From: an uncultured SAR116 cluster alpha proteobacterium | GTDB lineage: Bacteria; Pseudomonadota; Alphaproteobacteria; Puniceispirillales; Marisalimonadaceae | Assembly (NCBI GenBank): GCA_902623995.1 | Contig: CACNWE010000008.1 | Span: forward strand, 1 to 64,000 | DNA length: 64,000 nucleotides | Direction of reading: 5' to 3' | Shown here: positions 5,701 to 34,185 of the stretch, piece by piece | Layout: the number at the start of each line of letters is the position of its first letter | Numbering within the stretch: position 1 is the stretch's first letter | The notes under the pieces: generated by a model | Database searches by the model: none | What the model saw: the letters and a program-made list of their open reading frames with translations, nothing else | What the model was told of the DNA's origin: nothing | Made by a program: the position numbers and the translations under genes

Positions 5701-7481
5701 CCGTTGGGTAACCGAAATAGTGTTTCACTATGAAAGTCATCTGCTTCTCCAACTGGATCGGCTATCATATCTGTAAAACGGTAGTCAATCGCTGATAGAC
5801 CCGTTGTGTTTGGATACCCAAGCCAAGTGACTTGAATAGGAGCTGGCTTCTGAGCAAATACTAATAATCTGTTATTTGCAGTATGGCCAGCTAAATCAAC
5901 TAGAATGTCAATCTTATCTTTTTTGATTAGCTTAACAACATCAGTATCGGAAATACTAAATATAGGACGCCAATGATCTGATAAGGCCATAAGACGCCTT
6001 GTGGTACCATCAATTGGAGTATTATTATAATAGCAAAACGTTTCAACAACTGAAGCATTATGATGCTCTAAAAGTGGCTCAAAAAAATAAGATACTGAGT
6101 GACTTTTAAAGTCTCCAGAAACATAGCCAATACGTAATTTATCTCCAGAATGTTTAAAATTTTTATAGTCTAACGGAGTCCTTATATCTAATCCACCAAA
6201 TTGTTTCTCAAATTCAAGATGCTCTTCATAAACTTGTGTGAGTGACCACATCCACGAATAGTTTAAAGAAAACAATTTTTGATGATGATATGGATTACTC
6301 TCAGGTTCAAGTTCAACAGACTTGTTAAAGCTTTTTGCAGCATCTTTTAACTTTAAAAAACTCATCAATGTATTACCTAAGTTGCTGTAAGCTCCTGCAT
6401 AATTAGGCTTTAATTTTATTGCAGATAAGTAATTAACTTCAGCATCTGCATACTTACCAAGTCTGAATTGAACAAGTCCTAAATTGTTGTAAGCTTCCGC
6501 AAAATCAGGATTTATTTTTATTGCTTTTTTAAGTTTTTCTTCAGCTTCTTCTAAGAAAGTTAATTCTTTTTGACTAACTCCTAAGTTATTGTAAGCCTCC
6601 GCAAAATTAGGATCAATTCTAATTGTTTTATTGTAACTTTCTATTGCTTCTTTATAATTACCGTATTTATAATATATATTTCCTAAATTATTATGAGCGG
6701 CTGCAAATTCTGGTTCTAAATCTATCGCTTTTTCAATGTGGATTTTGGCTTCTTCTAGTCGATCTACTTCAATTAAAAATTCTCCAAATTTATTATGATA
6801 TTTAGATGAAGAATTTAAATTTATCAATTGTCTATAATATGCTTCGGCTTCTTTAAGTCTTCCTAGATTTTTCAACATAATAGTTAAGTTACTGAGTGTT
6901 TCAAGATCTTTTGGCTCAATATTTATAGCTATTTCAGATGCTGTTACTCCCTCTGAAATTCTGCCTGTTTCACTCATTATGACAGCAAGAGTTTTCCAAG
7001 CAAAAGGATGATTAGGAAATTGTTCGGTAATTGACAGTGCTAACTTTTCAGCTTCTTTGTATTTCTGATTTTGATAAAGTTCAAAAAGTTTTTTAAGTAA
7101 AGAATCAGATGGTGAAAGACTATTGCGTATATTACTTATTTGTTCACTGAGAAACTCAAATTTAGAACTCCAAATACCATTCTGCTTTGCTCTATCAATT
7201 ATAGATTCCGCATCTTTAAAGTTTTTCTCTTTTATAAGCGCCTCTATATAACTTAACCAAAATTTTTCAATCCTTGGGTTAACTTCAACAGCAGTTTTAA
7301 AGAAAGAAATAGCATCCTCGTGATTATTTAAAGATAATTTACAAGTTCCCAAATTATAATTAGCATCTGGGTGTTTAGGATTATTTTTTAATATTGAGCT
7401 ATAAAGCTGCTCTGCTTCTTTAAAATCACCTTTTTTTTGAAAATTTATACCTTTTTCAAGTTTTTCTGATATTGAGTTCAT
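2787..7481 (-). CDS. Giant TPR protein with two O-GlcNAc transferase-like catalytic domains
   Basis: A predicted cytoplasmic protein glycosyltransferase of 1564 residues. The order is TPR block (about 1-400), OGT-type catalytic domain (about 405-816), second TPR block (about 820-1150), and second OGT-type domain (about 1152-1563). Each catalytic domain carries GYVSGDFKSHSVSYFF, GSFNNLAKMT and FNGATTTCEALWMGVPVIT. The two catalytic domains are identical in protein, and by eye in DNA. The usual family member has one such domain and about 700-800 residues. It starts 56 bases downstream of fliD on the same strand, with no promoter of its own visible, so it is probably co-transcribed with fliD. 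This makes flagellin or another flagellar protein a reasonable acceptor (inference). A collapsed or duplicated assembly is the main alternative for the repeat. Confidence 0.85.
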   Translation of the reverse strand: MNSISEKLEKGINFQKKGDFKEAEQLYSSILKNNPKHPDANYNLGTCKLSLNNHEDAISFFKTAVEVNPRIEKFWLSYIEALIKEKNFKDAESIIDRAKQNGIWSSKFEFLSEQISNIRNSLSPSDSLLKKLFELYQNQKYKEAEKLALSITEQFPNHPFAWKTLAVIMSETGRISEGVTASEIAINIEPKDLETLSNLTIMLKNLGRLKEAEAYYRQLINLNSSSKYHNKFGEFLIEVDRLEEAKIHIEKAIDLEPEFAAAHNNLGNIYYKYGNYKEAIESYNKTIRIDPNFAEAYNNLGVSQKELTFLEEAEEKLKKAIKINPDFAEAYNNLGLVQFRLGKYADAEVNYLSAIKLKPNYAGAYSNLGNTLMSFLKLKDAAKSFNKSVELEPESNPYHHQKLFSLNYSWMWSLTQVYEEHLEFEKQFGGLDIRTPLDYKNFKHSGDKLRIGYVSGDFKSHSVSYFFEPLLEHHNASVVETFCYYNNTPIDGTTRRLMALSDHWRPIFSISDTDVVKLIKKDKIDILVDLAGHTANNRLLVFAQKPAPIQVTWLGYPNTTGLSAIDYRFTDMIADPVGEADDFHSETLFRLPNGFQCYKGNENINVNTDLPQNSRGYITFGSFNNLAKMTFEVINVWAKILKAVPNSKLIIKSPKLNTHGQHYIGLFEEEGIAADRIEFHNRVSDKNEHLEFYNKIDICLDTFCFNGATTTCEALWMGVPVITLLGDRHVGRVGASILTNIGLTDFIAQDIDDYVALASKMSNRPEYLKEIRQGLRKQMLSSPLCNGQSFARDVEDSYKDMWKKYLKTPINNDDVSQQNVLVDDIMLPSNIQFRKLVEYYKGDRYEDAEKLALSIIKQFPDHLLSMNILAAVLLKSGKVSEALIAYKNLLEKDPEDSEAFSNLGKIYEILNQLKKAEASYIKAIELKPDYVLVHIKLGNLFLNTSRFKEAVTSYKQALVFDPKSSIALNNLEIALQFKKLIELFQSDKYQDAEQLALSITKQLPNDKLAWKILALIHNRNGKFNDSIKANKFAIKIDPKDAEIYNNLGNTQCKIGRYEEAKKNYKKALSIDPEYIAAYNNLGNVLERLGLLSEAELIQRQAINLKSDFAEPYNNLGNILIKLGKHEEAKLNHNKAISLQKNNNDFYHSKNNSLNYSWMWSLTQVYEEHLEFEKQFGGLDIRTPLDYKNFKHSGDKLRIGYVSGDFKSHSVSYFFEPLLEHHNASVVETFCYYNNTPIDGTTRRLMALSDHWRPIFSISDTDVVKLIKKDKIDILVDLAGHTANNRLLVFAQKPAPIQVTWLGYPNTTGLSAIDYRFTDMIADPVGEADDFHSETLFRLPNGFQCYKGNENINVNTDLPQNSRGYITFGSFNNLAKMTFEVINVWAKILKAVPNSKLIIKSPKLNTHGQHYIGLFEEEGIAADRIEFHNRVSDKNEHLEFYNKIDICLDTFCFNGATTTCEALWMGVPVITLLGDRHVGRVGASILTNIGLTDFIAQDIDDYVALASKMSNRPEYLKEIRQGLRKQMLSSPLCNGQSFARDVEDSYKDMWKKYLKTPINNDDVSE
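2793..4028. repeat. Direct repeat copy 1 (OGT domain 2)
   Basis: This is one copy of a 1236-base direct repeat. Aligned at an offset of 2241 bases it matches 5034-6269 with no difference that I could find by eye. The offset is a multiple of three, so both copies are read in the same frame of one gene. It encodes the C-terminal catalytic domain. Confidence 0.9.
5034..6269. repeat. Direct repeat copy 2 (OGT domain 1)
   Basis: Second copy of the 1236-base repeat at 2793-4028. The match ends sharply on both sides, and the flanking TPR-coding DNA differs. This indicates a recent duplication or gene conversion limited to the catalytic domain. Confidence 0.9.
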
Positions 7482-7537: not shown

Positions 7538-10156
7538 TTAATCATCATCATTCATAGCATCTAACAAATTAGTTAAATATTCACCTGTTGACTTTAAACT
7601 AGTTACGGCTTGTTCCATACTAGTAAACTGCTGAATATATCTTTCTCTTAAAGATTTCATTTGAGCATTTAAATCTTCTAATAATGCTGACTGGTCCGTT
7701 ACTTCCTTATTAATTGTAGTTTCTCTTGTCGATAATTGCCCACTTGATGTGTTTAAAGTATCAGTTAAAAATGTAGTTAGTTTATCAATTAAACTTTGTC
7801 CGTAATACACTGTTGCATTAGCCCCAAGTCCTGAATATTTTACTTTTAAACCAGCTGCATTGCCTGAGGAAATAGTAAAGGTTTTATTAGTTATATCAGC
7901 TACCATCGCTACGCCATCTAATGTAGCAGATCCTGTTATGCCAGTAGTAGTTATCCCAGCTCCTGTTACCCCCACTGTAACTGATCCAGTCGTGTTTGAA
8001 GATGGCGTAATGGAAGATATTGTTTGAAAAGTTTTAGTACTATTTACTGTAGCATTTGCAGTAGGCCCCGTTATGACGTCTGTTTGTGCATTACCAGACA
8101 TATCTGTTCCAACGATAGTAAATGTTTTGTTACTCTCGTCACCTCCTGCGCTCACAATTGAGGGCCTTTTACCAGCTAGGTCTACAAAAGCAGATTTTGA
8201 TCCAATGTTGACTCCTGATGCAGCTGCATTAGATGATATTTGGGTTATATTTTGGAATATTTTTGTACTGGTTACACTATTTCCTGCAGTCGGTCCTGTT
8301 ATAATTTCCTCTTGTGCATTTCCATTGATATCAGTGCCAGTAATTGTAAATGCCACTGATGATAAATTATTTGAGCTTGCAATAGTTATTAATGAATTTA
8401 AATTAGTTGCACTATTAGAACTTGTTTGATCACCATCAAGAGCAAAATTTCCAGAACTACCAAGTGTTTCATTGTCAACAAGTCCGTCTGAGTCAGTAGT
8501 GGTAACAAGTGCTCCATTTATTGTTAAGGGATTGTTGGCAGTTCCAGATTGAGCTGTTCCTATTCCATCAGAATCTGATGTTCCTACAAATTTAAGGAAA
8601 CTATCCAAGTTGCTTCCAATTGAATTTATTACCATTGATGATGATGCACCAGTTGAACTAGAGGTAATTGAATAAGTACCATTAGAATGTGTTACAACAA
8701 CAGATTTTCCTGCAGCAGTTAAAGTACTATCATTGTTGATAGCAGTTTGAATTGCAGTAGCTAGTGCAGCCTCTGAAGAATAATGCGCGGCGGGAATTGT
8801 CACAGTACCAGATTGTGTTCCATCAACAGTTAATTGAACTGTATTATTTGATGCAGTTACTTCTGGTGAAGTATCACTACTTTTTAAGCCAGTGAATGCC
8901 CCTGATACATATGCTGTCATCGCAAATGCGTATGAACCAGCAGCAGGAGAGGAACTTGACGCTCCACTTACGTCTAAAAGAGTTGAAGTAGAGGAATACA
9001 TAGAGTTGAAAATAGCGTCTAACGAACTGGGATTATTTTTTAATTCTGTTTCTAATACATTAATATTTAGGCTAAGTAGTCCATTCTTTTCAGTTCTGAC
9101 ACCTAAATTTGATAGGTATACTCCATTAGCTCCAAAGCCAGATAATTGATTTGAAGTGAGCGTATTTAATCTTGAATGAATACTTTTTATAACAGGGTCA
9201 TCTGATAAATCTCCTGCTTGTCTAATTGATGAACCTCTAAAAATTTTGTCATTTAATAAAGTTCTAGCATCATTAATAGCACTTACAAAAGACTGTAAAT
9301 TTGTCTTTGCAGCATTGACATCAACTGTTCCTGAAAGTATTGATGGAGTATTGGTTCCGTTTACAATAGTGGATGAATTTAAATTAACTCTGTATCCAGA
9401 GAATAAATCATCAATTTCATTTGATGATCTTGTTAAAGAAATACCATCCACTGTAAATGAAGCATCTGTTCCAGCTACTTTTTGTTTTGATGAATTTGTA
9501 GTTGAATTATCTATACTCGCTAAACCAGAACCAGATGGACTTTCAGTAGCAGTAACTCTTATAGCATTATCTTTACCATCTCTTCCTTTTAAAACAAGAG
9601 TAAAAGTATCATCTCCAGCACCAAGCACACTAGCAGTAATTCCGTAGTTTAATGCATTAATTTTATCTTTTAATGACTCGAGCGTATCAGTTTCAAGAAC
9701 GGTTAACGATTTTGAACTTATCGTTGGACTAGCAACAAAACTTCCTGAAGACCAGTCACCTATTTCTAAAACAAGACTTCCAGCACCTACTAAAGATGTG
9801 TTAGATGCGTAATCCTCAAAAGCTAGTGTTTGTCCTTTTGCTATATTAGTAACACTAATAGATGAATTTATAGCAACTGCAACTGATGGGTCAGATATTG
9901 AAGCACTAACGGCCGTACTTGAAGAATTTACACTTAAAGACGTATTTCCAGTTAGAGTTGATAATGATGTCGATAATTTTGATAGAGAACTCTTAATTTC
10001 ACCAATTGCAGATATAGCTGTATTTTTCGCGTCAATTCGAGTTTGAATAGAATTTTCTTGAGGTGCTTTTTCTGCCTCAACTAAGCTGTCAACAATTTGA
10101 GTAATGTTTAAACCACTACCTTTTGAATTAATAGCACTTAAATAATCTACAGCCAT
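7538..10156 (-). CDS. fliD: Flagellar hook-associated protein 2 (filament cap), enlarged
   Basis: FliD forms the cap at the tip of the flagellum that folds exported flagellin into the filament. The N-terminus (GLNITQIVDSLVEAEKAP) and the C-terminus, with a coiled coil (TTINKEVTDQSALLEDLNAQ) ending in FTSMEQAVTSLKS, are typical. The length of 872 residues is well above the usual 450-700. The excess lies mainly in the middle, where two tandem modules (about residues 565-735) match modules repeated in FlgK of this window. A sigma-54 type -24/-12 site precedes it. It is followed closely by the double-OGT gene and preceded by the GDP-sugar cassette. The cap domain is exposed at the cell surface, so the added modules would face outwards (inference). 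Confidence 0.93.
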   Translation of the reverse strand: MAVDYLSAINSKGSGLNITQIVDSLVEAEKAPQENSIQTRIDAKNTAISAIGEIKSSLSKLSTSLSTLTGNTSLSVNSSSTAVSASISDPSVAVAINSSISVTNIAKGQTLAFEDYASNTSLVGAGSLVLEIGDWSSGSFVASPTISSKSLTVLETDTLESLKDKINALNYGITASVLGAGDDTFTLVLKGRDGKDNAIRVTATESPSGSGLASIDNSTTNSSKQKVAGTDASFTVDGISLTRSSNEIDDLFSGYRVNLNSSTIVNGTNTPSILSGTVDVNAAKTNLQSFVSAINDARTLLNDKIFRGSSIRQAGDLSDDPVIKSIHSRLNTLTSNQLSGFGANGVYLSNLGVRTEKNGLLSLNINVLETELKNNPSSLDAIFNSMYSSTSTLLDVSGASSSSPAAGSYAFAMTAYVSGAFTGLKSSDTSPEVTASNNTVQLTVDGTQSGTVTIPAAHYSSEAALATAIQTAINNDSTLTAAGKSVVVTHSNGTYSITSSSTGASSSMVINSIGSNLDSFLKFVGTSDSDGIGTAQSGTANNPLTINGALVTTTDSDGLVDNETLGSSGNFALDGDQTSSNSATNLNSLITIASSNNLSSVAFTITGTDINGNAQEEIITGPTAGNSVTSTKIFQNITQISSNAAASGVNIGSKSAFVDLAGKRPSIVSAGGDESNKTFTIVGTDMSGNAQTDVITGPTANATVNSTKTFQTISSITPSSNTTGSVTVGVTGAGITTTGITGSATLDGVAMVADITNKTFTISSGNAAGLKVKYSGLGANATVYYGQSLIDKLTTFLTDTLNTSSGQLSTRETTINKEVTDQSALLEDLNAQMKSLRERYIQQFTSMEQAVTSLKSTGEYLTNLLDAMNDDD
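7950..8460 (-). repeat. Type A module repeats inside fliD (2 copies)
   Basis: Two tandem units of about 80-85 residues with the pattern TFTITGTDxxGNxxTETITG, then an F-x-x-I-x-x-I segment and a closing V-x-[IV]-G. The first unit, with its lead-in SDGLVDNETLGSSG, is strikingly close to a unit in FlgK at 20585-20900. Coordinates are approximate. Confidence 0.75.
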
Positions 10157-18605: not shown

Positions 18606-21600
18606 TTAAACAACATCTATTAGAGATTGAAACATTTCCTTAGCTGTTTGCAAGATTCGTGCCGAAGCTTGGTAAGCTTGTTGAAATTCAAGTAAATGAG
18701 CTGCTTCTTCATCTAAGTTAACTCCTGCAAACTCACTTTGGCTTGCTTCTGCCGCATCAAGGGTACTAGAAGCTGAGTCCAAAGATAATTTACTTGCTTG
18801 AACGTTTGAACCTACTTTAGCAACCGTTGTATTAAAAATTTCCTGAAAATTACCTTTATTACCACCTGATTTATCTGATCCTTGAAGATTTAAAATATTA
18901 ATTATGTTTCTGTTATCTCCAAAACCATTTTTGTTACTTGAAAAATCAAAACTATTATTGACTATAGTTTCGTCAGAAAATTGAAATTTTGTGTTATTAA
19001 CTTCAAAAACTCTATTAACGTCTAGGATTCTTGATGCAATAGAATGACCAGAAATTTTATCAAAAATTTCCACTTTATTTTTATTTGTTGCATCAACTTT
19101 AATAGTTAATTCAGAGTCAAATTCATTATTTAAATTTTCACTTTCAGTAAATTGATCATATTGTGCACTTATTTTTCTTGCACCACCACCCATAACAATT
19201 GTAATCAAGTCCTCTGGTGGCATATTTGTTAAGCTTATTTTTTCTGCAACAGTGTTTTGAATTGATCCATTTGGTATCTCAACTTTTACTGGTTCTCCAG
19301 AAAATGACGTTACTTTTATTTCGTCACTATCAACTATAGCTCGTACATCTTGAGTTTTAAGACCATACACCTTGCTTGCATTAGGACTTGGATCAATCTT
19401 AAAATTAAGTTTATCAACAGTATAACTTAATGACAATCTACCTACCTTTTTTGTCCCAACTTTTACTGTTCCAGCAGAATTACTTTCAGGTACTATCGAT
19501 TTAATTTGAGTAAAAACCTTTTCTCCTGTAACAAGTACATCTTGACCTTTAGCAGTTAAAACTTCAGTTTGTGAGTTACCAAATTGATCTAAACCAGTTA
19601 TTGTGTATTTTCCTGTGTCATTTCCTGCAGGTTTAATTGTAATAACTTGTGGGTCCATAACTACAGAAGTTGCTTGTACACCAACCTTAATAGTGCTTGT
19701 TGTATTGTTGGCTACGGATATAGATGAAACTTCACTAAAAGAAATTGTGCCAGTTGCAGTCGAATTGTTTGCTCCTGAAATAGTTTCTGTCTTAAACACA
19801 CCATCAGTATCAATACCTGAAATTACAAAAGAATTATTACTTTCATCTCCATTACAAAATATTGTTATTTTACCATTTAAAGCTTTTGAGTTTTTTAAGG
19901 CACCATCGAGAGACAAATTACCTGCTGTAGCTGATTTACTTGTAAATAATCCATCAACATCAGTTGTTGATAAAATACCGTCAGTAATTATACCAACTCC
20001 TGCTGACATTGTATCGTTATATATAGAATCTTCAAGAGTTATGCCTGACGATTCATTCCATGATAAAGTGATTGAAGTGGGTGGTGAACTACTAAGTGCA
20101 GATCCATCACTATTGAAAAACACCGGATCATCACTACTATTAAATCTTATAGTATAATCTTTTTTAACTTCATTTTCTGTTACTTCTATCCCAATAAGAG
20201 GACTTGTAGTAGTTGGTTGAACAACAAAATTTCCAAGCATTGTTGTTGTACCTTCTTTTAAACCAAATGTTTCAGCATTGGCGGTATTTGCAGTGTTGGT
20301 AACTAATTTAAATTGAGCACCTTCGATTGTTCCTTCGGCAGTAGCTATAAGTTCATATCCTGGTGCAGTCCCAATTTCTATATTACCTAGGGTATTTGAT
20401 GCTGGGGTAATTGAGCTGACAGTTTTAAATAAACCTAATGATACTACTGTTTTTCCAGAGTTAGGACCAGAAATAGTTTCAGTTTTACTTAATCCGTCTG
20501 TTCCTATACCAACTATTGTAAAAGAATTATCGCTTTCATTACTTGTTGAAGTTATCGATATCCTTGTACCTAAGGATGAACCAAAAGCAGGTTCAGTTCC
20601 AACATTAATTCCTGTTGCCGCGTCATCAGAAGAAATATTTGTAATTTCTGTAAATAACTTAGTACCCTTAACTGTATTATTATTTACACCTGTAATAGTT
20701 TCTGTTTGGTCATTGCCGTCTAAATCTTTGCCAGTTATAGTAAAAGTAACAGATGCATTATCAGATGTGCTTGAGATACTTACTGTGGATTTCAAATTAG
20801 TGGCTGATCCAGAGCTTGTTTGAGCTCCATCAAGCGTAAAAACACCTGAACTTCCAATTGTTTCATTATCAACAAGACCATCACTATCTGATGATACTGA
20901 ATTTAAACCATTTATAATTAATTCTGTTGATGCTGTCCCAGTTTGGCTCGTAGCAATTAAATTTGGTATATTTTCTGATGTACCATTAAATCGTGCTTTA
21001 ATTCTATTTGTTTCAGGACCCTCAACAAGCAGTTCTCCAGAAGCCATTTTAAGAGTATAGACTTGTCCTTCAAAACTTAAATCTACTGATTGTCCATCTA
21101 TAGGTAAGGCGTTTATAACTTTACTTTTTATTTGAACAGTTGGAGTTTCAGATCTCAATGATGTAAGTAGCGCCGTAGATATTTCTTTTTGGGTATCTAT
21201 ATTTAATGCATTTGCATCAATTGTAGTATTCCAATTTCCATCAGCTGCTTCTGTACCTATCCGTATTTTACCATTATAGGAAGTTCCCGACGCATTTATG
21301 GACGTCACTGTTTTAAAAATGTTAGAACTAGTAACTATACCACCATTAGATCCAGTAATGGGTTCTGTTATAACCTTATTGTTTAAATCCGTACCAACAA
21401 TAGTAAAAGTTGTACCACTTGTATCCTCTTGACTCTTAATTTTAATTCTAGCTCCAAGATAGTTGGCTGTTGATAAGACACCATTCATTTCAATTGGATT
21501 ACCAGATGTAAAAGATGTTAATTGAACTAAACTATCATCATCATTTATATCATTATGACCAACTGTTCCAATATTTATATTACCACCCGGTCTTACAGAA

Positions 21601-24600
21601 GAACTAATAGAACTTATGGTAGTAAATTTTGTAGAGCCAACAGCAGTGCCATTATTTACACCACTTATGGTTTCAGTGATAATATTACCGCTTGAATCTT
21701 TACCTGTGACAGTAAATATATTTCCCGTCGCCCCGGCCCCGGTACTGCTCTCATTAGCCGTGCAATATATAGTAACAACAGCATTTAAATTATTAGCATC
21801 TTTTAATTCTCCATCAAGTGTAATAGTTCCCGAAGAACTAGGTCTATTTGACGAGTACAAGCTATCATCATCACTCACGAATAATTTGTAATCTTTTTGA
21901 TTTATGTCAATTCCATATTTAGACAAGCCAACAACAGCCTTTTTACCGTCAGGAGATCCAAGGCTATTATCTAAATCATCAAATATTTCAGGTTTTATAG
22001 TAACAACTTCCCCGGTTTTGTTTCTATTTACGTTCACATAGCCATTTGTCAGAGCATCTTTTATCGCTACATTTGAAACCCCTGAATTTATTTGTGTTGT
22101 AAAAGTTTCACTTGATGTAAATTTTAGTTCACCTTTAATATTGGCCGAACTTTTCTTTGAATTACTTACATCTATTAATAGTCTTGAGTTTCTTTGTGAG
22201 TCATTTTCACTTAATTTTTCAAAATCTTTTCCAAACACCTCCAGAAAAAAGTCAGATGGAGCTGTGATGTTTTTTAAATTAATGTCGTATCCATCCTTAG
22301 ACTCAATGATTATTTTCTTAAAATCTCCAGTAACTACAGCTAATAAACCTGTCTGAGAAGAATACTCATTAATTCTTTTTGCAAGTGCTGAGATGTCGCT
22401 TGCATCTATACTTGCATTTATTGAGACTGCTTCTGAATTTTTTCCTTTTAAATCAAATGTTATAGAACCACTAACTCCATCATTAAAAGGACCAAGCAAA
22501 ACTTTTGTATTCGCTGATACATTTACCCCAGTACCCGCTAACTCTGTGTTTAATTTATTTGCTAAATAGTAGGCACTAGTACCCACAGGTACATTTGTAG
22601 TTTTTTCTATGTTGTTATTATTAATGACTTTAAGAGAATATCCAATCGCTTCTGTCCCGATAGTCACCTTACCAGCTGAATCACCATCTATACTTATATT
22701 TCTAACTTTACTAAAAACTTTACTACCAACAACAGTAGTAGCATTACCACCAGGAATAGTTTCAGTTTGATATAACCCATCTAAGTCGTAACCTGTAACA
22801 GTAAATGTTCTTCCTGATTCATCTTTCTCACATGCAATTGAAATATATGAATTAAGTTCTTTTGAATGTATTTTTGTTCCATCAAGTGTTATTATTCCAG
22901 AGGAAAAATTTTTTATTGAAGCGCCATTTGCGTGCGCTGTTGCAGTAGACGTAAGTGTATTTACTGTTGTTCCCCTAGTTACACCAGTAAAAGATGTAGC
23001 TGTGATACCAGTATAAGTCACATATTCTGGTCCAATTAATAATGTACCAGCTTCAGGAAAACCAGTTGTACTTGTGACATTAAAGGTTGTAGCCGTTGGG
23101 TCTATTGCTTGAGAAATGCCAGTATTTCTATCATGTTTTGCAGCTGTTGTACTACTTGTTGCTCTTGTTACCCCATTAAAAGTTGTTCCTGTCTTACTTG
23201 TGTATGTAAAAAGCTCGTCACCAATTTTAATAGCACCAACAGAGTCAAATGCTGAAGTGTTTTCTACAGTTATTGTTCCTGAGCCAGACATGGTGTCACC
23301 ACTTCCGATAACTAAAAAAACATCAACGCCATGTGCATGATCTGCAGCAGTACTACCTTCTTTAGCCCTGGTTACACCAGTTAGATTATTTCCACTTACA
23401 CCTGTATATGTGAAATATTCTGAACCAATTTTAATTGTTCCTCCGGTGCTAGGAAAACTTGTAGCATTATCAAGAGGTATTTGGGTAACAGCGCTAGTAC
23501 CTAATGTTCCACCAGAGTTGTTGTAAGTTGATTCTGCACCTCTTACTGTGGTTGCAGCAGTATAATTTAATGATGTTTCTGTTAGTGTAGTTTCAATCAA
23601 CGATAGAGTCTTGGAAGTTAACAAGCCATCCATATCTGTTTCTTGTTTATTATAACTAAGGTTTGATCCAAAACTGCTTGTAAAATCACCCTCAGCTGTT
23701 TTTCTATTTGAGTTAATCCCTCTATAATTATTATTTAAATAATCATTTCTATATTCAGCACTTTCAAAAAACCCATTTTCAGCTTTTATTAATGAAGCTA
23801 TTTGAGTTGCGTTAAGTGAAGTGCCAGACACGTGTCGTCCATCCCTGGTAAAAACTTGTAAGTTACTTGCAGCAGCTTCATCTGTTGTCAAATTTGAAAT
23901 AGATGGGCTAAAGGAATTACCTCTGGATAAAATAGAAGAACTCGAAATATCATATGAAGAAGAGGAAATGGTAAGATAGCCATTTGATCCAGTGGCAAAC
24001 AAACCTAATTTTCTAAAATCATGTTGACTTTTTCCATCTAACATCAAACCAGAGTTAAGTAGATTAGCAAATTCTTTTACGGTTTTAATACCATCTCCGG
24101 GGTCTGTAGCTGCTGAATTTATTATAATTTCTCTATTATCAGTATCATCACTAAGTTTAATATTGAAGGATGAAAATCCCTTAATATCTGCATCAGAAAT
24201 AGTAAAAGTCGCAGATGATTGATTTCTTAGTGAATTTAAATTTATTGATTTAGTAGATGAAGGGATTGTTATTATTGGACCGTCTTTTAAAAAAGATGTA
24301 GCAACTAATGGATTTGTACTAGAGGTAAAAACTTTATTGATACTCGGTGGGTGATCTATTTCAGTTTGAGTTGTTGAACCTATAATGTTTAATTCAACAT
24401 TCCCAACATTAGCGGCATTTTTTGAAATTAAACTTTTTGAAGCAGCTGCAAAATCTTCAGGATTTTGAAGATGAAATTTCATAGCACCAGCTTTTGTTAA
24501 CGTTGGTGAAATTTGAAAACCATCACCATCTTTTGGCTGTCCAATTATTTCAATTTGATATCCTTCAAAATTAATTTTATTTCCTGTTGCTGTAGATATA

Positions 24601-25730
24601 CCTTTTGAGTCTCTTATTTCCCAATTGTTGTTTATTTTTGAATAATTTACTAAAATTTTCTCTTGAATAATTTTACTTAAATCGCCCTCAATTATATTAA
24701 ATTTCAATTCTGATTTATTGCTGAAATTAGCCTGAGGTAGCATTGAATTTACAGAAAACATAGCTTTCCCAGATTTCCCATTGAGATCAATTCCGAAGGT
24801 TTGAATTTCATTAACATCGTTTGAAAATTGTTCTGCAAGTTTACTTATTTCACTACTTACAGAGTCAACTAAGTTATAAAAGTTTGAAATTCCAAATATT
24901 ATTCCTGAAGAATAAATTCCAGCTGTTTTTTTACCACCTCCTTCATTTACAACTAATGAAACATTTTTATCATCTGAAGTTGAGGTTAGAATTGAACCTT
25001 TACTTCTATTAACTAAAAAAGCTCCATTGCCTGAGTCACCTAATCTTACTATAGCTTCACCTGTATCAGCATAATCTACAGTGAAATTTAAAAGTTTTGA
25101 TAAGTCTATTAACAACTTATCTCTTGCATCTAAAACATCATTTGATGCATCACTATTGCCACTAGTAGCAATTAATTTATTTACTTCGACTAATTGATCT
25201 ATATATAGATTTGCTTCAGTTAATTTTATATCGATTTGCCTTATCGCGTTGGATTTAAAATTTTTAAATTGATCATCATAACTGTTAAAAGCAGAAGCTA
25301 ATGCTTTACCTGCCTCTAATGACACTGCTCTTGCTGAAATACTATCCGGATTACTTGCCACATCTTGAAGGGTATCAAAAAACCGTCCTATAAAAACACC
25401 TAAATCGCTTCCTGAAGGTAATAACATATTTTCTAAGTCGCTTAACTTAGAAACAAAATCATTTAACATTTCATAATCAGATTGTGAGGTTCTTGTTTTA
25501 TCAGCAAGATAAGCATTAAATGATCTACGAACATTAGTAACTCTTACGCCTAAACCAGATTGGTCAGATACATTCGTCGGTCCACCTGTTACGCCTGCCA
25601 CCTCACTAACATCTGCTCTTCTTTTGTTGTATCCATCAGTATTAATATTAGCAATATTCTGGCCAGTTACAGACAAAGCTTGTCTATATGCTTGTACACC
25701 AGTTTTTCCAATTTCAAATAAAGAGGCCAT
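18606..25730 (-). CDS. flgK: Giant flagellar hook-associated protein 1
   Basis: FlgK joins hook to filament. The ends are canonical: an N-terminal GKTGVQAYRQALSVTGQNIANINTDGYNKRR block, and a C-terminal block with VNLDEEAAHLLEFQQAYQASARILQ. The total of 2374 residues is about four times the usual size. The extra length is a central region made largely of two kinds of repeat: three type B modules (about residues 740-940) and seven type A modules (about 940-2100, not all adjacent). Type A modules also occur in FliD, and type B modules in FlgE. The insert should project from the hook-filament junction (inference from FlgK structure). It overlaps the end of the flgJ gene by one base, within the flgG-L operon. 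Confidence 0.93.
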   Translation of the reverse strand: MASLFEIGKTGVQAYRQALSVTGQNIANINTDGYNKRRADVSEVAGVTGGPTNVSDQSGLGVRVTNVRRSFNAYLADKTRTSQSDYEMLNDFVSKLSDLENMLLPSGSDLGVFIGRFFDTLQDVASNPDSISARAVSLEAGKALASAFNSYDDQFKNFKSNAIRQIDIKLTEANLYIDQLVEVNKLIATSGNSDASNDVLDARDKLLIDLSKLLNFTVDYADTGEAIVRLGDSGNGAFLVNRSKGSILTSTSDDKNVSLVVNEGGGKKTAGIYSSGIIFGISNFYNLVDSVSSEISKLAEQFSNDVNEIQTFGIDLNGKSGKAMFSVNSMLPQANFSNKSELKFNIIEGDLSKIIQEKILVNYSKINNNWEIRDSKGISTATGNKINFEGYQIEIIGQPKDGDGFQISPTLTKAGAMKFHLQNPEDFAAASKSLISKNAANVGNVELNIIGSTTQTEIDHPPSINKVFTSSTNPLVATSFLKDGPIITIPSSTKSINLNSLRNQSSATFTISDADIKGFSSFNIKLSDDTDNREIIINSAATDPGDGIKTVKEFANLLNSGLMLDGKSQHDFRKLGLFATGSNGYLTISSSSYDISSSSILSRGNSFSPSISNLTTDEAAASNLQVFTRDGRHVSGTSLNATQIASLIKAENGFFESAEYRNDYLNNNYRGINSNRKTAEGDFTSSFGSNLSYNKQETDMDGLLTSKTLSLIETTLTETSLNYTAATTVRGAESTYNNSGGTLGTSAVTQIPLDNATSFPSTGGTIKIGSEYFTYTGVSGNNLTGVTRAKEGSTAADHAHGVDVFLVIGSGDTMSGSGTITVENTSAFDSVGAIKIGDELFTYTSKTGTTFNGVTRATSSTTAAKHDRNTGISQAIDPTATTFNVTSTTGFPEAGTLLIGPEYVTYTGITATSFTGVTRGTTVNTLTSTATAHANGASIKNFSSGIITLDGTKIHSKELNSYISIACEKDESGRTFTVTGYDLDGLYQTETIPGGNATTVVGSKVFSKVRNISIDGDSAGKVTIGTEAIGYSLKVINNNNIEKTTNVPVGTSAYYLANKLNTELAGTGVNVSANTKVLLGPFNDGVSGSITFDLKGKNSEAVSINASIDASDISALAKRINEYSSQTGLLAVVTGDFKKIIIESKDGYDINLKNITAPSDFFLEVFGKDFEKLSENDSQRNSRLLIDVSNSKKSSANIKGELKFTSSETFTTQINSGVSNVAIKDALTNGYVNVNRNKTGEVVTIKPEIFDDLDNSLGSPDGKKAVVGLSKYGIDINQKDYKLFVSDDDSLYSSNRPSSSGTITLDGELKDANNLNAVVTIYCTANESSTGAGATGNIFTVTGKDSSGNIITETISGVNNGTAVGSTKFTTISSISSSVRPGGNINIGTVGHNDINDDDSLVQLTSFTSGNPIEMNGVLSTANYLGARIKIKSQEDTSGTTFTIVGTDLNNKVITEPITGSNGGIVTSSNIFKTVTSINASGTSYNGKIRIGTEAADGNWNTTIDANALNIDTQKEISTALLTSLRSETPTVQIKSKVINALPIDGQSVDLSFEGQVYTLKMASGELLVEGPETNRIKARFNGTSENIPNLIATSQTGTASTELIINGLNSVSSDSDGLVDNETIGSSGVFTLDGAQTSSGSATNLKSTVSISSTSDNASVTFTITGKDLDGNDQTETITGVNNNTVKGTKLFTEITNISSDDAATGINVGTEPAFGSSLGTRISITSTSNESDNSFTIVGIGTDGLSKTETISGPNSGKTVVSLGLFKTVSSITPASNTLGNIEIGTAPGYELIATAEGTIEGAQFKLVTNTANTANAETFGLKEGTTTMLGNFVVQPTTTSPLIGIEVTENEVKKDYTIRFNSSDDPVFFNSDGSALSSSPPTSITLSWNESSGITLEDSIYNDTMSAGVGIITDGILSTTDVDGLFTSKSATAGNLSLDGALKNSKALNGKITIFCNGDESNNSFVISGIDTDGVFKTETISGANNSTATGTISFSEVSSISVANNTTSTIKVGVQATSVVMDPQVITIKPAGNDTGKYTITGLDQFGNSQTEVLTAKGQDVLVTGEKVFTQIKSIVPESNSAGTVKVGTKKVGRLSLSYTVDKLNFKIDPSPNASKVYGLKTQDVRAIVDSDEIKVTSFSGEPVKVEIPNGSIQNTVAEKISLTNMPPEDLITIVMGGGARKISAQYDQFTESENLNNEFDSELTIKVDATNKNKVEIFDKISGHSIASRILDVNRVFEVNNTKFQFSDETIVNNSFDFSSNKNGFGDNRNIINILNLQGSDKSGGNKGNFQEIFNTTVAKVGSNVQASKLSLDSASSTLDAAEASQSEFAGVNLDEEAAHLLEFQQAYQASARILQTAKEMFQSLIDVV
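19440..22905 (-). repeat. Type A module repeats inside flgK (7 copies)
   Basis: Seven units of roughly 75-90 residues, at about 22640-22905, 21560-21840, 21240-21510, 20585-20860, 20355-20580, 19675-19930 and 19440-19660. Each has L-D/N-G, then TFTITGTDxxGNxxTETITG, then an F-x-x-[IV]-x-[SN]-I segment and a final [IV]-x-[IV]-G-T. Units are diverged from each other. Coordinates are approximate. Confidence 0.75.
22910..23510 (-). repeat. Type B module repeats inside flgK (3 copies)
   Basis: Three units of about 60 residues. Each has a Thr/Ser-rich strand, SFPxxGTIxIGSExxxYTG, SFTGVTRG and then T-x-A-x-H. The same unit occurs four times in FlgE at 31135-32115. Confidence 0.75.
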
Positions 25731-29520: not shown

Positions 29521-32500
29521 TTATGTTCTAATTTGAATTATAGCTTGCGTTAGACTTGTATTTGTCTCAATTGTCTTAGCGTTAGCTTGGAAGTTTCTTT
29601 GTGCAGTAATCAAGTTAACTAATTCTTCAGTAATATCAACGTTAGATCTTTCTAAAGAACCAGATAAAATCGTTCCATAACCATCCGCACCAGCTTCTCC
29701 AACTGCTGCTACACCAGAAACTGAGGTTTCAACATAAGTTGCATTACCAATTTGTTTTAATCCATTTTGGTTGTTAAAATTAACCATCACTAGTCGTCCA
29801 AGTGCAATATTCAGACCGTTAGTATAGTTTGCACTTACCAATCCGTTTGCAGCAATATCTAAGCCATCTAATTTACCAACAGTTTGTCCATCTTGTGTAA
29901 CAGTTCTAACGTTGAAATCAGATGCAAATTGTGTTGATCCGTCAAAGTCTAAATCTAAGTCAATTGACAAGGCATTAGTACCAGCGGCTGCGTCTGCAGC
30001 AAAATCACCTTTATAATTAACTTTTTGAGTCGGACTTAATAAGTTACCTTGAGTATCAAAAGTCAATTCACCAGGTCTTAAAAAAACCTTCGCAAAAGTA
30101 CCATCCGTAGTAGGTGTCCAAGCATTATCTGGAGCAAGTGTTGTAGTATTACCTGCATCATTAACATACAATGATTGTCCAGTATCTGATTTAGCAATTG
30201 TATTGGCCATATTAACAAATGAAGGTGTTGTTCCTGTTACTAATTCAAGATCATCTAATCCCATACGAGCACTTGCAGAAACAAAGATTTTACTGTTCAA
30301 ACCTGTTGTACCAGTAGTAAATGTGAATGAGTTACTAGTAGTATTATATACAACTGTTACACCATTAACCGTGTTACCTGCTAGGTCTTCCATTTGATTA
30401 ATTCTTGACTGAAGCGCTGTTGCAAGTGATGTTCCGTTATATACTCCTTCAGGCACTTTAATAGCTGCTGTAATATCATTAACGTTTACAACAAAGATTG
30501 TCTCTTCTGCAGCATCTGATAGGAAAAAATCTTCAGATAAGTCTTCATTTGAAGTTTTTCCATTTAAGACAGCAGGTTCAGATTGTAAGCCTTTTCCAGC
30601 TGTATCCGCTGTAACTGTCGTAATTGCATTTGTAGCGTTAATACCTAATAGAGCACTTGTGCCACCAGTACCTGTTGCAGAAGCAGTAGCAACACCATCA
30701 ACAATTGCAAGTCTACCAATCTCTATGTTGGATGATGGTTGACCAGAATCTCCAACACCAACAGCAGAATTTGCAGGAATATTTTCACCAGTTGATCCGC
30801 TTGCAATACTGAATTTTCTTGTAAGGTTGTTATATGATACCTCTACTCCAAAAGCTTGCTGTGTATCCGCAGCAATCTGGTCACCAGTAAAAAGCACAGA
30901 TTCAGCTTTTAAAACTGCACCACCACCAATGTTTGAGGATGCTTTATTACTTAATGTCTTAAGACCTATAGCATTGGCTTGATTACCCTCTCCAGGCCCA
31001 AAAGCAGAGAAAGAAAACATTTTACTCGGTGTAGAAGTTCCTATTTTAGAAGGAATTCCTTGCAGGGTAAAATTTTGTCCAGAAATATCATAGCCAATTT
31101 TTAATGCAGGATCATTTTCATCGACCCAATCATCGGTTACAGATATATCTTGGAAAATTGCAACATTATTAGCATGTTGTACATCTGATGTACCGCCAGC
31201 ACCTCTTGTTAATCCTGTAAAAGAAGTTGCAGTTTTACCTGTATAATGGATTAATTCATTATTAATTCTTATGTAACCATTATCTTCAAATCCTGATGTA
31301 TCATCTACCGTTAGGGTTGTAGCACCTTGTAAAAAATTACCAGCATCATCAACATTAGTTGTCCTAGTTTCCATTCCAAGAGTTTCTACGCTCTCAACTA
31401 AACTAACCTCAGGTAACACTATAATGTCTACATTATCGTTATGTATAGCTGCTGTTGTTCCATTGACACCTCTAGTACAACCAGTAAAGACATTTTCACT
31501 ATTAATTACGGCTAAACCCGTATAACTTATTTGTTCAGAACCTATTAATATAGTTCCTTCACTTGGTAATGAAGTTCCGGCTGCCACGGTATCATAAGCA
31601 ATTGTAGTTGCAGTAGCAGATATGTTTGAAGTGTTGTCTACCTTAGCTTTGGAACTTGTAAAAGTTGATGTATTATCAACGCCTCTTGTTATTCCAGTGA
31701 AGGAAGTTGCAGTTTTACCTGTATAATTCATTTTTTCTGTACCAACTAAAATAGTTCCAGTATCAGGAAATCCATTTGTTGATCCAACGTTTAATGTTCC
31801 ACCTGTAAGAGCAGGCGTTGGAGTTGAGGTTTCTACTTGAGCTGCAGTAACTGTGTTTCTCAATTCGTCCTTGAAACCACTAAAAATACCATTAGTAAAT
31901 GTTTTTAAAGTAATTGTAGTATCATCAGTATGAGCCGAAAGAGATTGTGTGGAAATAGACCCAGAAGCCGTAAAAGAGGTTGATGTTTTACCATCATATT
32001 CAAATGTATCTGATCCAATTATAAGAGTGCCAGAGTCTGGAAAGCCTGAGGTACTATCGACATTTATTGAAGTAGTGTTACCTGAAGATATAGCACCATT
32101 TATAAGAGTATCAGGTCGCATCACTTCTTTGTTTAAATAAGCATGTTTATTTAATTCTTTAATAACAATTCTTTTACTTCCAAAATGTTGTGTTTGCCCG
32201 TCAAAAACATTTGTGCCACCCTCAAAATAAGCGTCAACATCCTTTGATACTGTATGAAGAACCTTAATTTTAGTGTCAGTAATATTGATAGCTGCGGTAG
32301 AGTCAGATTTTAGATTTAAAAATTTGTTACCATTTGCATCTGTGCCAGCACTTGATACAGAAAATTTAGCTCCATTATATTTAAGATTATTTACAGTTGA
32401 TGTTGTAGTATCAAATTCGCCAGCTATATGGACCTCAGTTGGAAAAGTTGTAGAACTAATTGTGTTGTCAGGGTCATTTATGAAAACTTTAAGAGTTCCA

Positions 32501-34185
32501 CTTGCATCCTGTACCATTGTATTACCACTTACAGCTTTTACATCTAAGGCCTTATCAAATACCTTTAATTCTGGAGATGAGTTATAATAACTATGAAGTA
32601 AAAATTTAGTTTCATCAGTAGCTGCTTGTTCATTAGTTAGATCTGTAGAAGGATGCTTATAATTAAAACTTAAAACTTCAGTTTCTTTTACTGCTCCTGC
32701 CATTTTTAAACCAGTACCTCTTGCAAAAAGAGAAGAACTTACTCCATAAGTAGCAGAATTATTAGTCGCACCATCTGCAGAAACAGCTGCTCTGTTCAAT
32801 GAATCATTAATTCTTAATTGAGCATGTGCTAAAAATTGCTCTCTTTCAAAATTTGGAGATGCTACATTTTCAATACCATTTGTGGAAGAAAACAAATCTT
32901 CAGTAACAAAACTGTCCTGCATCAAATCAACATTAATTGCTGTTAAAGTTTGAATTTCATCATTATTATCAAGCTGGTTAAACTGGATTGAAAAACTACC
33001 GTCAGTCACAGGATCAATAGCCAATTTTGCATCATCTGATAATCCTGCATTGATGGCTCTTTGAACTTCAGAAGCAAGACTAGTTGCAGTATAGGTGCCA
33101 GGTCTAATATCTATACTTTTGAAGCTTGCACTACCAGTTGTGTCATCAACACGAACTGTCAAGAAATCTTTACCCCAATAGGTAGATTTATTCAATGTAG
33201 GGTTGGCTTCATATGTAGTATAGTATTGTAATGGATCAGTTACAACTGTTATGGAAGGTGCAGTAGCAGTGAACGCTGCATCTTCTAGAACTGCTGACTC
33301 AACAGTGGCAGACTTTGAAACAGTTTTATTTGAAAGGTCGTCAAGAAAAAATAATGGTTGTGTTTGGGCAACTGAAATAATCTGTGGTTTTTCATTTATT
33401 GGAATAATTTGACCAAAACGGTCAACAACTAATGTCTGTCCTGTTGGTGAGATAGCCTCTGTCAAAGATGGTTCAACTTCTCTTCCATCAACGATAAATT
33501 TGGTTTGATATTTATGTGTTACATTGTCCCCTGATGCAGCCTGAGTTTTAATAAAAAAAGCAGTTGCAATTACTGGATTACCCAAATTATCAAAAATTGT
33601 TACAGAAGTTGATGAATTAAAAGTTGCAGGATTTTTGGGGTCGAAATCTGCAGCTGACTCAAAAACTGTTGATGAAGCAGGTAAGTTTACAGCTAATTCA
33701 AGATTATCTGTTTTCTTAGCTTCACCTGCTTCTAATTCTAATTTTAGTGGTTTAGCGTCAGCAATTTCACCACCTTGAACAGATCCATCGTCAGATACAG
33801 GTAACGCAAGAACAAACTGACCTGCTGAGTCAACAACAAATCTGTCGTTGTTAACTGAAAATGAACCGTTTCTTGTATAAACAGTTTGGTTAGTAGTTAA
33901 TGAAGGTTTTAGTGCAAAGAACCCTTGCCCTGATATAGCCATATCCAAAGCATTAAGGGATGAAGATACGTTTCCTTGAGTAAATTGTTGTTTAATACCT
34001 TTCAAAATTGTTCCTGATCCAATGGATGATGATGCATTTTGGAGAGGAGATGTAGCAAAAATATCACCAAATTCAGCCTTACTTCTTTTATAACCTGTCG
34101 TTGCGACGTTAGCGATATTATTTGAAGTAGCTGAAATATCTGCTTGTGATCCGTTTAGTCCTGTAAGAGCGGTGTAAAATGACAT
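29521..34185 (-). CDS. flgE: Giant flagellar hook protein
   Basis: FlgE polymerises into the hook. Ends are canonical: MSFYTALTGLNGSQADISATSNNIANVATTGYKRSKAEF at the start and LERSNVDITEELVNLITAQRNFQANAKTIETNTSL at the end. The core LDMAISGQGFFALKP is also present. At 1554 residues it is about three times the usual size. The excess is a long central region containing four type B modules (about residues 690-1017) plus further Ser/Thr-rich sequence. A second, short hook-like gene lies at 45800, so which protein forms the bulk of the hook is open. It lies 33 bases downstream of flgD. Confidence 0.93.
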   Translation of the reverse strand: MSFYTALTGLNGSQADISATSNNIANVATTGYKRSKAEFGDIFATSPLQNASSSIGSGTILKGIKQQFTQGNVSSSLNALDMAISGQGFFALKPSLTTNQTVYTRNGSFSVNNDRFVVDSAGQFVLALPVSDDGSVQGGEIADAKPLKLELEAGEAKKTDNLELAVNLPASSTVFESAADFDPKNPATFNSSTSVTIFDNLGNPVIATAFFIKTQAASGDNVTHKYQTKFIVDGREVEPSLTEAISPTGQTLVVDRFGQIIPINEKPQIISVAQTQPLFFLDDLSNKTVSKSATVESAVLEDAAFTATAPSITVVTDPLQYYTTYEANPTLNKSTYWGKDFLTVRVDDTTGSASFKSIDIRPGTYTATSLASEVQRAINAGLSDDAKLAIDPVTDGSFSIQFNQLDNNDEIQTLTAINVDLMQDSFVTEDLFSSTNGIENVASPNFEREQFLAHAQLRINDSLNRAAVSADGATNNSATYGVSSSLFARGTGLKMAGAVKETEVLSFNYKHPSTDLTNEQAATDETKFLLHSYYNSSPELKVFDKALDVKAVSGNTMVQDASGTLKVFINDPDNTISSTTFPTEVHIAGEFDTTTSTVNNLKYNGAKFSVSSAGTDANGNKFLNLKSDSTAAINITDTKIKVLHTVSKDVDAYFEGGTNVFDGQTQHFGSKRIVIKELNKHAYLNKEVMRPDTLINGAISSGNTTSINVDSTSGFPDSGTLIIGSDTFEYDGKTSTSFTASGSISTQSLSAHTDDTTITLKTFTNGIFSGFKDELRNTVTAAQVETSTPTPALTGGTLNVGSTNGFPDTGTILVGTEKMNYTGKTATSFTGITRGVDNTSTFTSSKAKVDNTSNISATATTIAYDTVAAGTSLPSEGTILIGSEQISYTGLAVINSENVFTGCTRGVNGTTAAIHNDNVDIIVLPEVSLVESVETLGMETRTTNVDDAGNFLQGATTLTVDDTSGFEDNGYIRINNELIHYTGKTATSFTGLTRGAGGTSDVQHANNVAIFQDISVTDDWVDENDPALKIGYDISGQNFTLQGIPSKIGTSTPSKMFSFSAFGPGEGNQANAIGLKTLSNKASSNIGGGAVLKAESVLFTGDQIAADTQQAFGVEVSYNNLTRKFSIASGSTGENIPANSAVGVGDSGQPSSNIEIGRLAIVDGVATASATGTGGTSALLGINATNAITTVTADTAGKGLQSEPAVLNGKTSNEDLSEDFFLSDAAEETIFVVNVNDITAAIKVPEGVYNGTSLATALQSRINQMEDLAGNTVNGVTVVYNTTSNSFTFTTGTTGLNSKIFVSASARMGLDDLELVTGTTPSFVNMANTIAKSDTGQSLYVNDAGNTTTLAPDNAWTPTTDGTFAKVFLRPGELTFDTQGNLLSPTQKVNYKGDFAADAAAGTNALSIDLDLDFDGSTQFASDFNVRTVTQDGQTVGKLDGLDIAANGLVSANYTNGLNIALGRLVMVNFNNQNGLKQIGNATYVETSVSGVAAVGEAGADGYGTILSGSLERSNVDITEELVNLITAQRNFQANAKTIETNTSLTQAIIQIRT
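31135..32115 (-). repeat. Type B module repeats inside flgE (4 copies)
   Basis: Four units of about 60-85 residues carrying the pattern GTIxIGSExxxYTGKTATSF followed by TG[VIL]TRG and a T-x-x-x-H segment. The same unit occurs in FlgK at 22910-23510. Coordinates are approximate. Confidence 0.75.

Follow-up and report, generated by a model that had tools for sequence, protein, structure and literature searches.

We analysed a stretch of 64,000 nucleotides (the window) from a marine SAR116 bacterium of the order Puniceispirillales, whose own family is coded f1 here. The window encodes a giant FlgK (hook-associated protein 1, HAP1) and the filament cap protein FliD, and both carry copies of a module of about 70-75 amino acids (aa) that we call type A. 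An iterative hidden Markov model (HMM) detected seven copies in FlgK (window positions 19440-22850, 69-91 bits each) and two in FliD (aa 588-657 and 664-736, window positions 7949-8395), in agreement with a preliminary description of this DNA that had counted about seven in FlgK, within 19440-22905, and two in FliD. The two genes and their modules are given below, with the bit score of each module in this HMM and its E-value in a second HMM that was built from viral modules only, with no flagellar input.

18606-25730, minus strand: giant FlgK (HAP1), 2374 aa, with FlgK_D1, Flg_bbr_C and TIGR02492 matches; FlgK chains of the PDB align with aa 1-436
22641-22850, minus strand: FlgK type A module 1, aa 961-1030; 90.8 bits; viral-only E 2.3e-12
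21552-21779, minus strand: FlgK type A module 2, aa 1318-1393; 69.0 bits; viral-only E 9.2e-6
21240-21449, minus strand: FlgK type A module 3, aa 1428-1497; 79.0 bits; viral-only E 2.1e-12
20583-20789, minus strand: FlgK type A module 4, aa 1648-1716, first of a tandem pair; 82.9 bits; viral-only E 8.1e-16; in the AlphaFold2 pair model described below (mean confidence 89)
20358-20564, minus strand: FlgK type A module 5, aa 1723-1791, second of that pair; 85.7 bits; viral-only E 1.8e-12; in the same AlphaFold2 model
19665-19871, minus strand: FlgK type A module 6, aa 1954-2022, first of a tandem pair; 78.8 bits; viral-only E 3.7e-8
19440-19649, minus strand: FlgK type A module 7, aa 2028-2097, second of that pair; 86.6 bits; viral-only E 1e-7
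7538-10156, minus strand: FliD (filament cap), 872 aa, with FliD_N and FliD_C above their cut-offs
8186-8395, minus strand: FliD type A module 1, aa 588-657; 83.7 bits; viral-only E 3.4e-19
7949-8167, minus strand: FliD type A module 2, aa 664-736; 87.9 bits; viral-only E 8e-16

FlgK scored 148.6 bits with FlgK_D1 (cut-off 28.6; Pfam E 2.9e-43), 42.7 bits with Flg_bbr_C (cut-off 23) and 231.7 bits with the NCBIfam model TIGR02492 (cut-off 170.75), the latter covering both ends of the protein (aa 3-385 and approximately 2243-2372). FliD scored 50.5 bits with FliD_N (cut-off 24.8) and 96.7 bits with FliD_C (cut-off 25.4). A census of the same genome, consisting of a similarity search of the genome and of two stretches of its contig C10, added a third carrier outside the window. 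This is a 981-aa flagellin on contig C10, in which typical flagellin ends (Flagellin_N and Flagellin_C) enclose a central region with two type A copies and a three-unit cassette of a second repeat, type B. The proposal in the preliminary description that the module is a building block of hook-associated proteins thus holds for FlgK and FliD, but it is too narrow, since flagellins carry the module too.

The best score among 1000 shuffled FlgK and FliD sequences was 5.8 bits. Furthermore, the HMM derived from viral modules recovered all 11 copies (seven in FlgK, two in FliD and two in the flagellin), with domain E-values of 9e-6 to 3e-19, and found nothing significant elsewhere in these three proteins, nor in the control proteins FlgE, FlgL and two further flagellins. 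Because the shuffled sequences reached so low a score and the viral HMM found exactly the real copies, the type A copies are not due to chance or composition.

The relatives of type A outside bacteria were found among marine tailed phages. The alignment of the modules (A1) was too diverse for degenerate-pattern scans, and the IMG/VR collection was scanned with the single FliD pair as the query, which yielded 29 contigs with type A. A tblastn search with the same pair gave no match in INPHARED (50,697 phage records) or in the PLSDB plasmids, so that profile methods and viral queries were needed. Each viral carrier has one module, and the carriers belong to several protein types, of about 200-220 aa, of about 350 aa and, in one case, of 717 aa with a match to phrog_5107. 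On four contigs (L048, L050, L053 and L055) the carrier gene starts 0.6-2 kb downstream of a major head protein gene (phrog_371), and the clearest carrier in an isolated phage is gp42 of Pelagibacter phage HTVC023P, annotated as hypothetical and located two genes after the capsid gene gp40. The domain was also found within a prophage-like stretch of a distant alphaproteobacterium. The ten viral carriers that were scanned included a convincing PHROG family for the 717-aa protein only and a Pfam family for none of them, and no Pfam or PHROG family was found over the type A region of FlgK.

Comparison of the bacterial and viral profiles with hhalign gave a probability of 99.3 and an E-value of 1.9e-20. 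We are highly confident of this homology, by which type A is a small all-beta domain belonging to one family with a domain that marine tailed phages have in a head-proximal protein, and of the insertion architecture of FlgK described below. In the phages the domain is single-copy and typically encoded close to the capsid gene, and in SAR116 it recurs inside flagellar proteins; the SAR116 proteins share a domain with the phage head-proximal proteins and are not the same protein. The preliminary description had given similar sequences as frequent in virion proteins of marine phages and had suggested an HMM search of the single module against phage and bacterial proteins, in the expectation of phage hits. 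Phage homologues were indeed found, near the major head protein, although the supposed frequency was not borne out in isolated phages. Its authors also knew of no description of the module in hook-associated proteins, and we found none in the open-licence literature.

The fold was predicted with AlphaFold2 for the tandem pair of FlgK (aa 1618-1801), with a mean predicted local distance difference test (pLDDT) of 89 and a predicted template modelling score (pTM) of 0.72. The model is all beta, with approximately six strands per module; modules 4 and 5 are separated by a single residue, counted from the last strand of the former to the first strand of the latter. A viral carrier of 209 aa was predicted with a pLDDT of 84. 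In a Foldseek search of BFVD, the FlgK pair model gave a best match at an E-value of 2.4e-10 and six further matches at E ≤ 0.001, most of which were proteins of uncultured Caudovirales, typically about 200 aa in length. These entries also headed the list for the viral model; the predicted structures of the bacterial and viral modules thus have the same fold. The repeated fold in FlgK expected by the preliminary description is therefore present in the model, but its suggestion of an Ig-like fold is not supported, because the FlgK pair had no fold match in the PDB at E ≤ 0.001. The bacterial and viral module profiles had no significant sequence match in the PDB, and the Pfam family Big_13 was detected in only one of 39 module members (E 0.0058), which does not support a place for the modules among the Ig-like/Big domains.

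Among the 136 genomes of the order, 48 carry the module, and all but one of these belong to four genera of family f1. The exception is a genome of family f4 (G129), in which a FliD and flagellins of the f1 type lie on contigs of 10-11 kb (L112 and L115). Its own FlgK, of 1219 aa, matches that of the neighbouring genome G130 with equal length and E-value. With a FlgK of its own and the module genes on short contigs, this genome is probably a binning mix-up (contamination). Beyond the order, the 385 genomes sampled from the class and the 399 sampled from the phylum included only three others with the module. None of these carriers is flagellar and one is prophage-like; they are a BNR-repeat (sialidase-like) protein, a protein of 237 aa encoded next to a phage major head protein, and a filamentous-haemagglutinin-like protein of 9496 aa. 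The last of these, from an alphaproteobacterium (G787, L138 2-18472), has two type A modules, and the BNR protein has one.

Across family f1, type A is carried by FlgK, FliD and two kinds of flagellin. The number of copies in complete FlgK proteins is seven, eight or nine, and their positions correspond; FliD has one or two. One type of flagellin has two copies and the other has none to three, with none in the member from the genome of the window. The copy number thus varies little among relatives, contrary to what the preliminary description had anticipated, and rapid turnover of the copy number was rejected on the basis of the conserved positions, the positional orthology and the tree of the modules. 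Most copies share 82-97% identity with their positional counterparts in other genomes (72% for FlgK copy 2); identity to the best paralogue in the same genome is 39-57% and to the best viral module 39-53%. The tree showed position-wise orthology across genera and placed the viral modules in one group (support 94/84). Comparison of the copies showed type A to be vertically inherited, as judged by sequence, across the f1 genera. For FliD copies 1 and 2, copies 1 and 2 of the flagellin FlaA and FlgK copies 4 and 5, the best match in the same genome was the copy at the same place within a pair, which suggests that the two-module pair may have been the unit shared among FlgK, FliD and flagellin.

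The ratio of nonsynonymous to synonymous substitution rates (dN/dS) did not exceed approximately 0.5 over the whole FlgK and reached 0.36 in type A. Purifying selection acts on every region of FlgK, on the type A modules less strictly than on the ends, and this selection and the positional orthology speak against rapid antigenic variation of type A. In a separate comparison of two FlgK genes (G031 and G033; L094 and L095), the number of synonymous substitutions per site (dS) was 0-0.03 in several regions of the 3' half and 0.2 at the 5' end, a recombination mosaic.

All four families of the order have a long FlgK, with full-length frames of approximately 2126-2475 aa in f1, 2030 aa in f2, 1114-1766 aa in f3 and 1200-1219 aa in f4, and type A was not found in the FlgK proteins sampled from f2-f4. 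These proteins align with aa 1-690 of the window FlgK, with parts of aa 1087-1276, with aa 1530-1584 and with approximately aa 2105-2374, and the gaps between the aligned stretches hold most of the type A copies and the type B cassette. Because the f2-f4 proteins align around these gaps and lack type A, the enlarged FlgK scaffold seems to be order-wide and older, and the type A copies seem to be later insertions at approximately four sites. The f2 FlgK of 2030 aa (G005, L142 591-6680) contains four copies of another motif, HGFxxGDxVxY (type C), with a weak PHROG match.

The second repeat, type B, links FlgK, the flagellin and the hook protein in the window:

22920-23540, minus strand: FlgK type B cassette, three units of about 54 aa within aa 731-937, also present in the 981-aa flagellin
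29521-34185, minus strand: giant FlgE (hook), 1554 aa, with FlgE_D2 and without type A; four type B units (type B HMM) at aa 704-739, 794-841, 858-918 and 954-1007

In FlgK the cassette lies directly before type A module 1 and is present in only some FlgK proteins of the genus; a stretch of the 981-aa flagellin is 79% identical to FlgK aa 696-951. The FlgK copies of the cassette differ from each other by a dS of 0.08-0.29 and from most flagellin copies by 0.25-0.44, one flagellin copy (G031) being distant from all others (0.95-1.4). Between the genome of the window (G000) and G031, the dS was 0.25 for the cassette and 0.44-0.90 for its FlgK flanks. The distance between the FlgK and flagellin cassettes within a genome was 0.25-0.39. 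Since the distances between FlgK and FlaA within genomes were not smaller than those between genomes, concerted evolution of the cassette in each genome was rejected, and the distances fit better with one recent transfer and subsequent spread. Most likely, the cassette moved recently from flagellin to FlgK and then underwent spread or conversion within the genus. The type B region of FlgE matches PHROG virion and baseplate families. Giant FlgE proteins were also observed in relatives (full-length frames of 1559-1747 aa), and a non-flagellar open reading frame of 482 aa on contig C10 (L010 5511-6956) has one type B unit and no Pfam match.

Serine and threonine together make up 29% of type A and 32% of type B, versus 16-17% of the FlgK cores; glycine makes up 12% of type A, and the seven FlgK copies contain no tryptophan. 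Glycosyltransferase genes of the tetratricopeptide repeat (TPR)-GT41 type (FlmG/OGT-like) lie near FliD, at window positions 104-2365 and 2787-7481, and in many SAR116 relatives (L070, L071, L075, L080, L081, L083 and L098). They are accompanied by DegT, GDP-fucose-synthase-like and GDP-mannose-dehydratase-like genes in the window, at L082/L103 and at L098. The closest named precedent is FlmG, a flagellin O-glycosyltransferase of Caulobacter (PMC7591256). The TPR-GT41 gene at 2787-7481, which encodes 1564 aa, contains two stretches of 1236 bp that are 100% identical, which may reflect a very recent internal duplication, gene conversion or an assembly artefact.

The following explanation, taken as a whole, appears to us somewhat favoured. 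The ancestor of one SAR116 family would have acquired type A, most likely from a phage; the module would then have multiplied at approximately four sites of an already enlarged FlgK, and a two-module block would have come to be common to FlgK, FliD and flagellins. Outer D2/D3 domains are exposed in a solved flagellum (PMC12221982), and because the insertion sites are those at which axial proteins carry such domains, the modules would be expected to project radially, as short rods, around junction, filament and cap. The one-residue spacing between modules in the predicted pair would make these rods stiff. A common, probably O-glycosylated outer layer would thicken and shield the structure, with the D0/D1 cores assembling as usual. 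We favour such a glycosylated spacer or coat because of the D2/D3 sites, the richness in serine and threonine, the TPR-GT41 genes near FliD and the FlmG precedent, but this functional part of the explanation, including radial projection and homotypic packing, is plausible rather than probable. The roles put forward in the preliminary description, namely adhesion, phage evasion and sheath-like packing, are speculative. A wider version of our explanation is more tentative and rather doubtful: the domesticated phage virion domain would be a general coat module whose tandem pair packs homotypically into a continuous glycosylated layer, and family f2 would have filled its enlarged FlgK with a different phage-type module, type C, in addition to the type B cassette of the present genome.

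Several observations weigh against parts of this explanation. FlgL, the other junction protein, had no type A module by HMM in the genome of the window or in relatives, and this makes a continuous coat less credible. In weak alignments, two FlgK proteins of f3 extend into type A module 1 (aa 977-1169 and 1007-1280) and one into module 6 (from aa 1994), and the insertion boundaries in FlgK are thus, on the alignments, not perfectly clean. The tree of the modules is unrooted and its deep forks are open, so that we can only infer transfer from phage to bacterium. O-glycosylation of the modules is possible, on the basis of composition and gene neighbourhood.

The modules could instead be adhesins, phage-type domains that bind glycans or particles and attach the flagellum to algae, gels or surfaces. 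Two of the non-flagellar carriers look related to surfaces or carbohydrates (the haemagglutinin-like protein, with two copies, and the BNR protein, with one). However, we consider this unlikely, as the fold had no significant match in the PDB to a known lectin or carbohydrate-binding domain, the FlgK copies lack tryptophan and the modules are not confined to the tip but occur in the junction, the filament and the cap. It is less likely still that type A forms a variable surface, with units swapped or diversified to escape flagellotropic phages or protist grazers. According to a review, the roles known for outer domains are in antigenicity and phage attachment (PMC7018530), the type B cassette common to FlgK and flagellin (dS 0.25-0.39) is younger than its flanks, and FlgK has mosaic patches, such as that between G031 and G033 (dS near 0 in much of the 3' half versus 0.2 at the 5' end). 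Nevertheless, the type A positions are kept over several genera, with a dN/dS of up to 0.36 and only 7-9 copies in FlgK.

The direction of transfer could also have been the reverse, with an old bacterial surface domain picked up by phages, given that the viral group could branch within the bacterial diversity of the unrooted tree with its open deep forks. This appears improbable, in view of the rarity of the module outside one SAR116 family (three genomes of the 385 and 399 sampled, one of them prophage-like) and of the spread of the viral carriers over at least three protein types (about 210, 350 and 717 aa). Finally, similarity might reflect only the composition of beta proteins rich in serine, threonine and glycine, without common descent, a view to which the 29% serine plus threonine and 12% glycine of the modules and the empty tblastn search of 50,697 phage records lend some colour. 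It is extremely improbable: the viral-only HMM hit none of the remaining axial proteins of this genome, among them type B regions with an equal composition, shuffled sequences scored no more than 5.8 bits, and the profile-profile E-value of 1.9e-20 is joined by an independent structural match in BFVD.

Parts of this picture are already known from other systems, namely giant flagellins with central tandem repeats (PMC6248924) and foreign domains in flagellins (PMC5595980). The closest precedent is that of the giant flagellins of marine gamma-proteobacteria (Bermanella and Oleibacter), which have tandem Domain-Extension (DE) repeats and are reported to form thick filaments (PMC6248924). They resemble the SAR116 proteins, by description, in that the outer D2/D3 region of an axial protein of a marine bacterium has given way to a long insertion that contains tandem repeats, but the repeats are in flagellin only, and FlgK and phage are not mentioned in that study, whereas here FlgK, FliD and flagellin are all involved. 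In flagellinolysin, too, the exposed region of a flagellin has received a foreign domain, but that domain is a metallopeptidase (PMC5595980), and FlgK, FliD, FlgE, FlgL and the three flagellins had no metallopeptidase match in Pfam. In Campylobacter jejuni, the cap protein FliD (domain D4) and the junction protein FlgL (bulky D2) likewise have extra outer domains that are specific to the lineage; compared by description, they are single domains, with no repeated module common to several proteins (PMC12221982). The phage head-proximal proteins of about 200 aa (HTVC023P gp42 and its IMG/VR relatives) have the same domain by profile and predicted fold, but in single copy and with N- and C-terminal parts of their own, which are absent from FlgK with its 7-9 copies. 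In the open-licence literature we found neither a report of FlgK or FliD with a repeated phage-related module nor an account of the structure of the SAR116 flagellum.

The outer domains of flagellins are known to vary, and discussion has usually centred on single proteins. In this widespread ocean clade, three axial proteins use one and the same identifiable domain, which has a phage counterpart and lies outside Pfam and PHROGs. This offers a concrete source for new outer domains and an example of module movement from one flagellar gene to another, as well as a structural handle on an unnamed protein of marine phages. It also provides a testable idea of how an outer layer could be common to junction, filament and cap.

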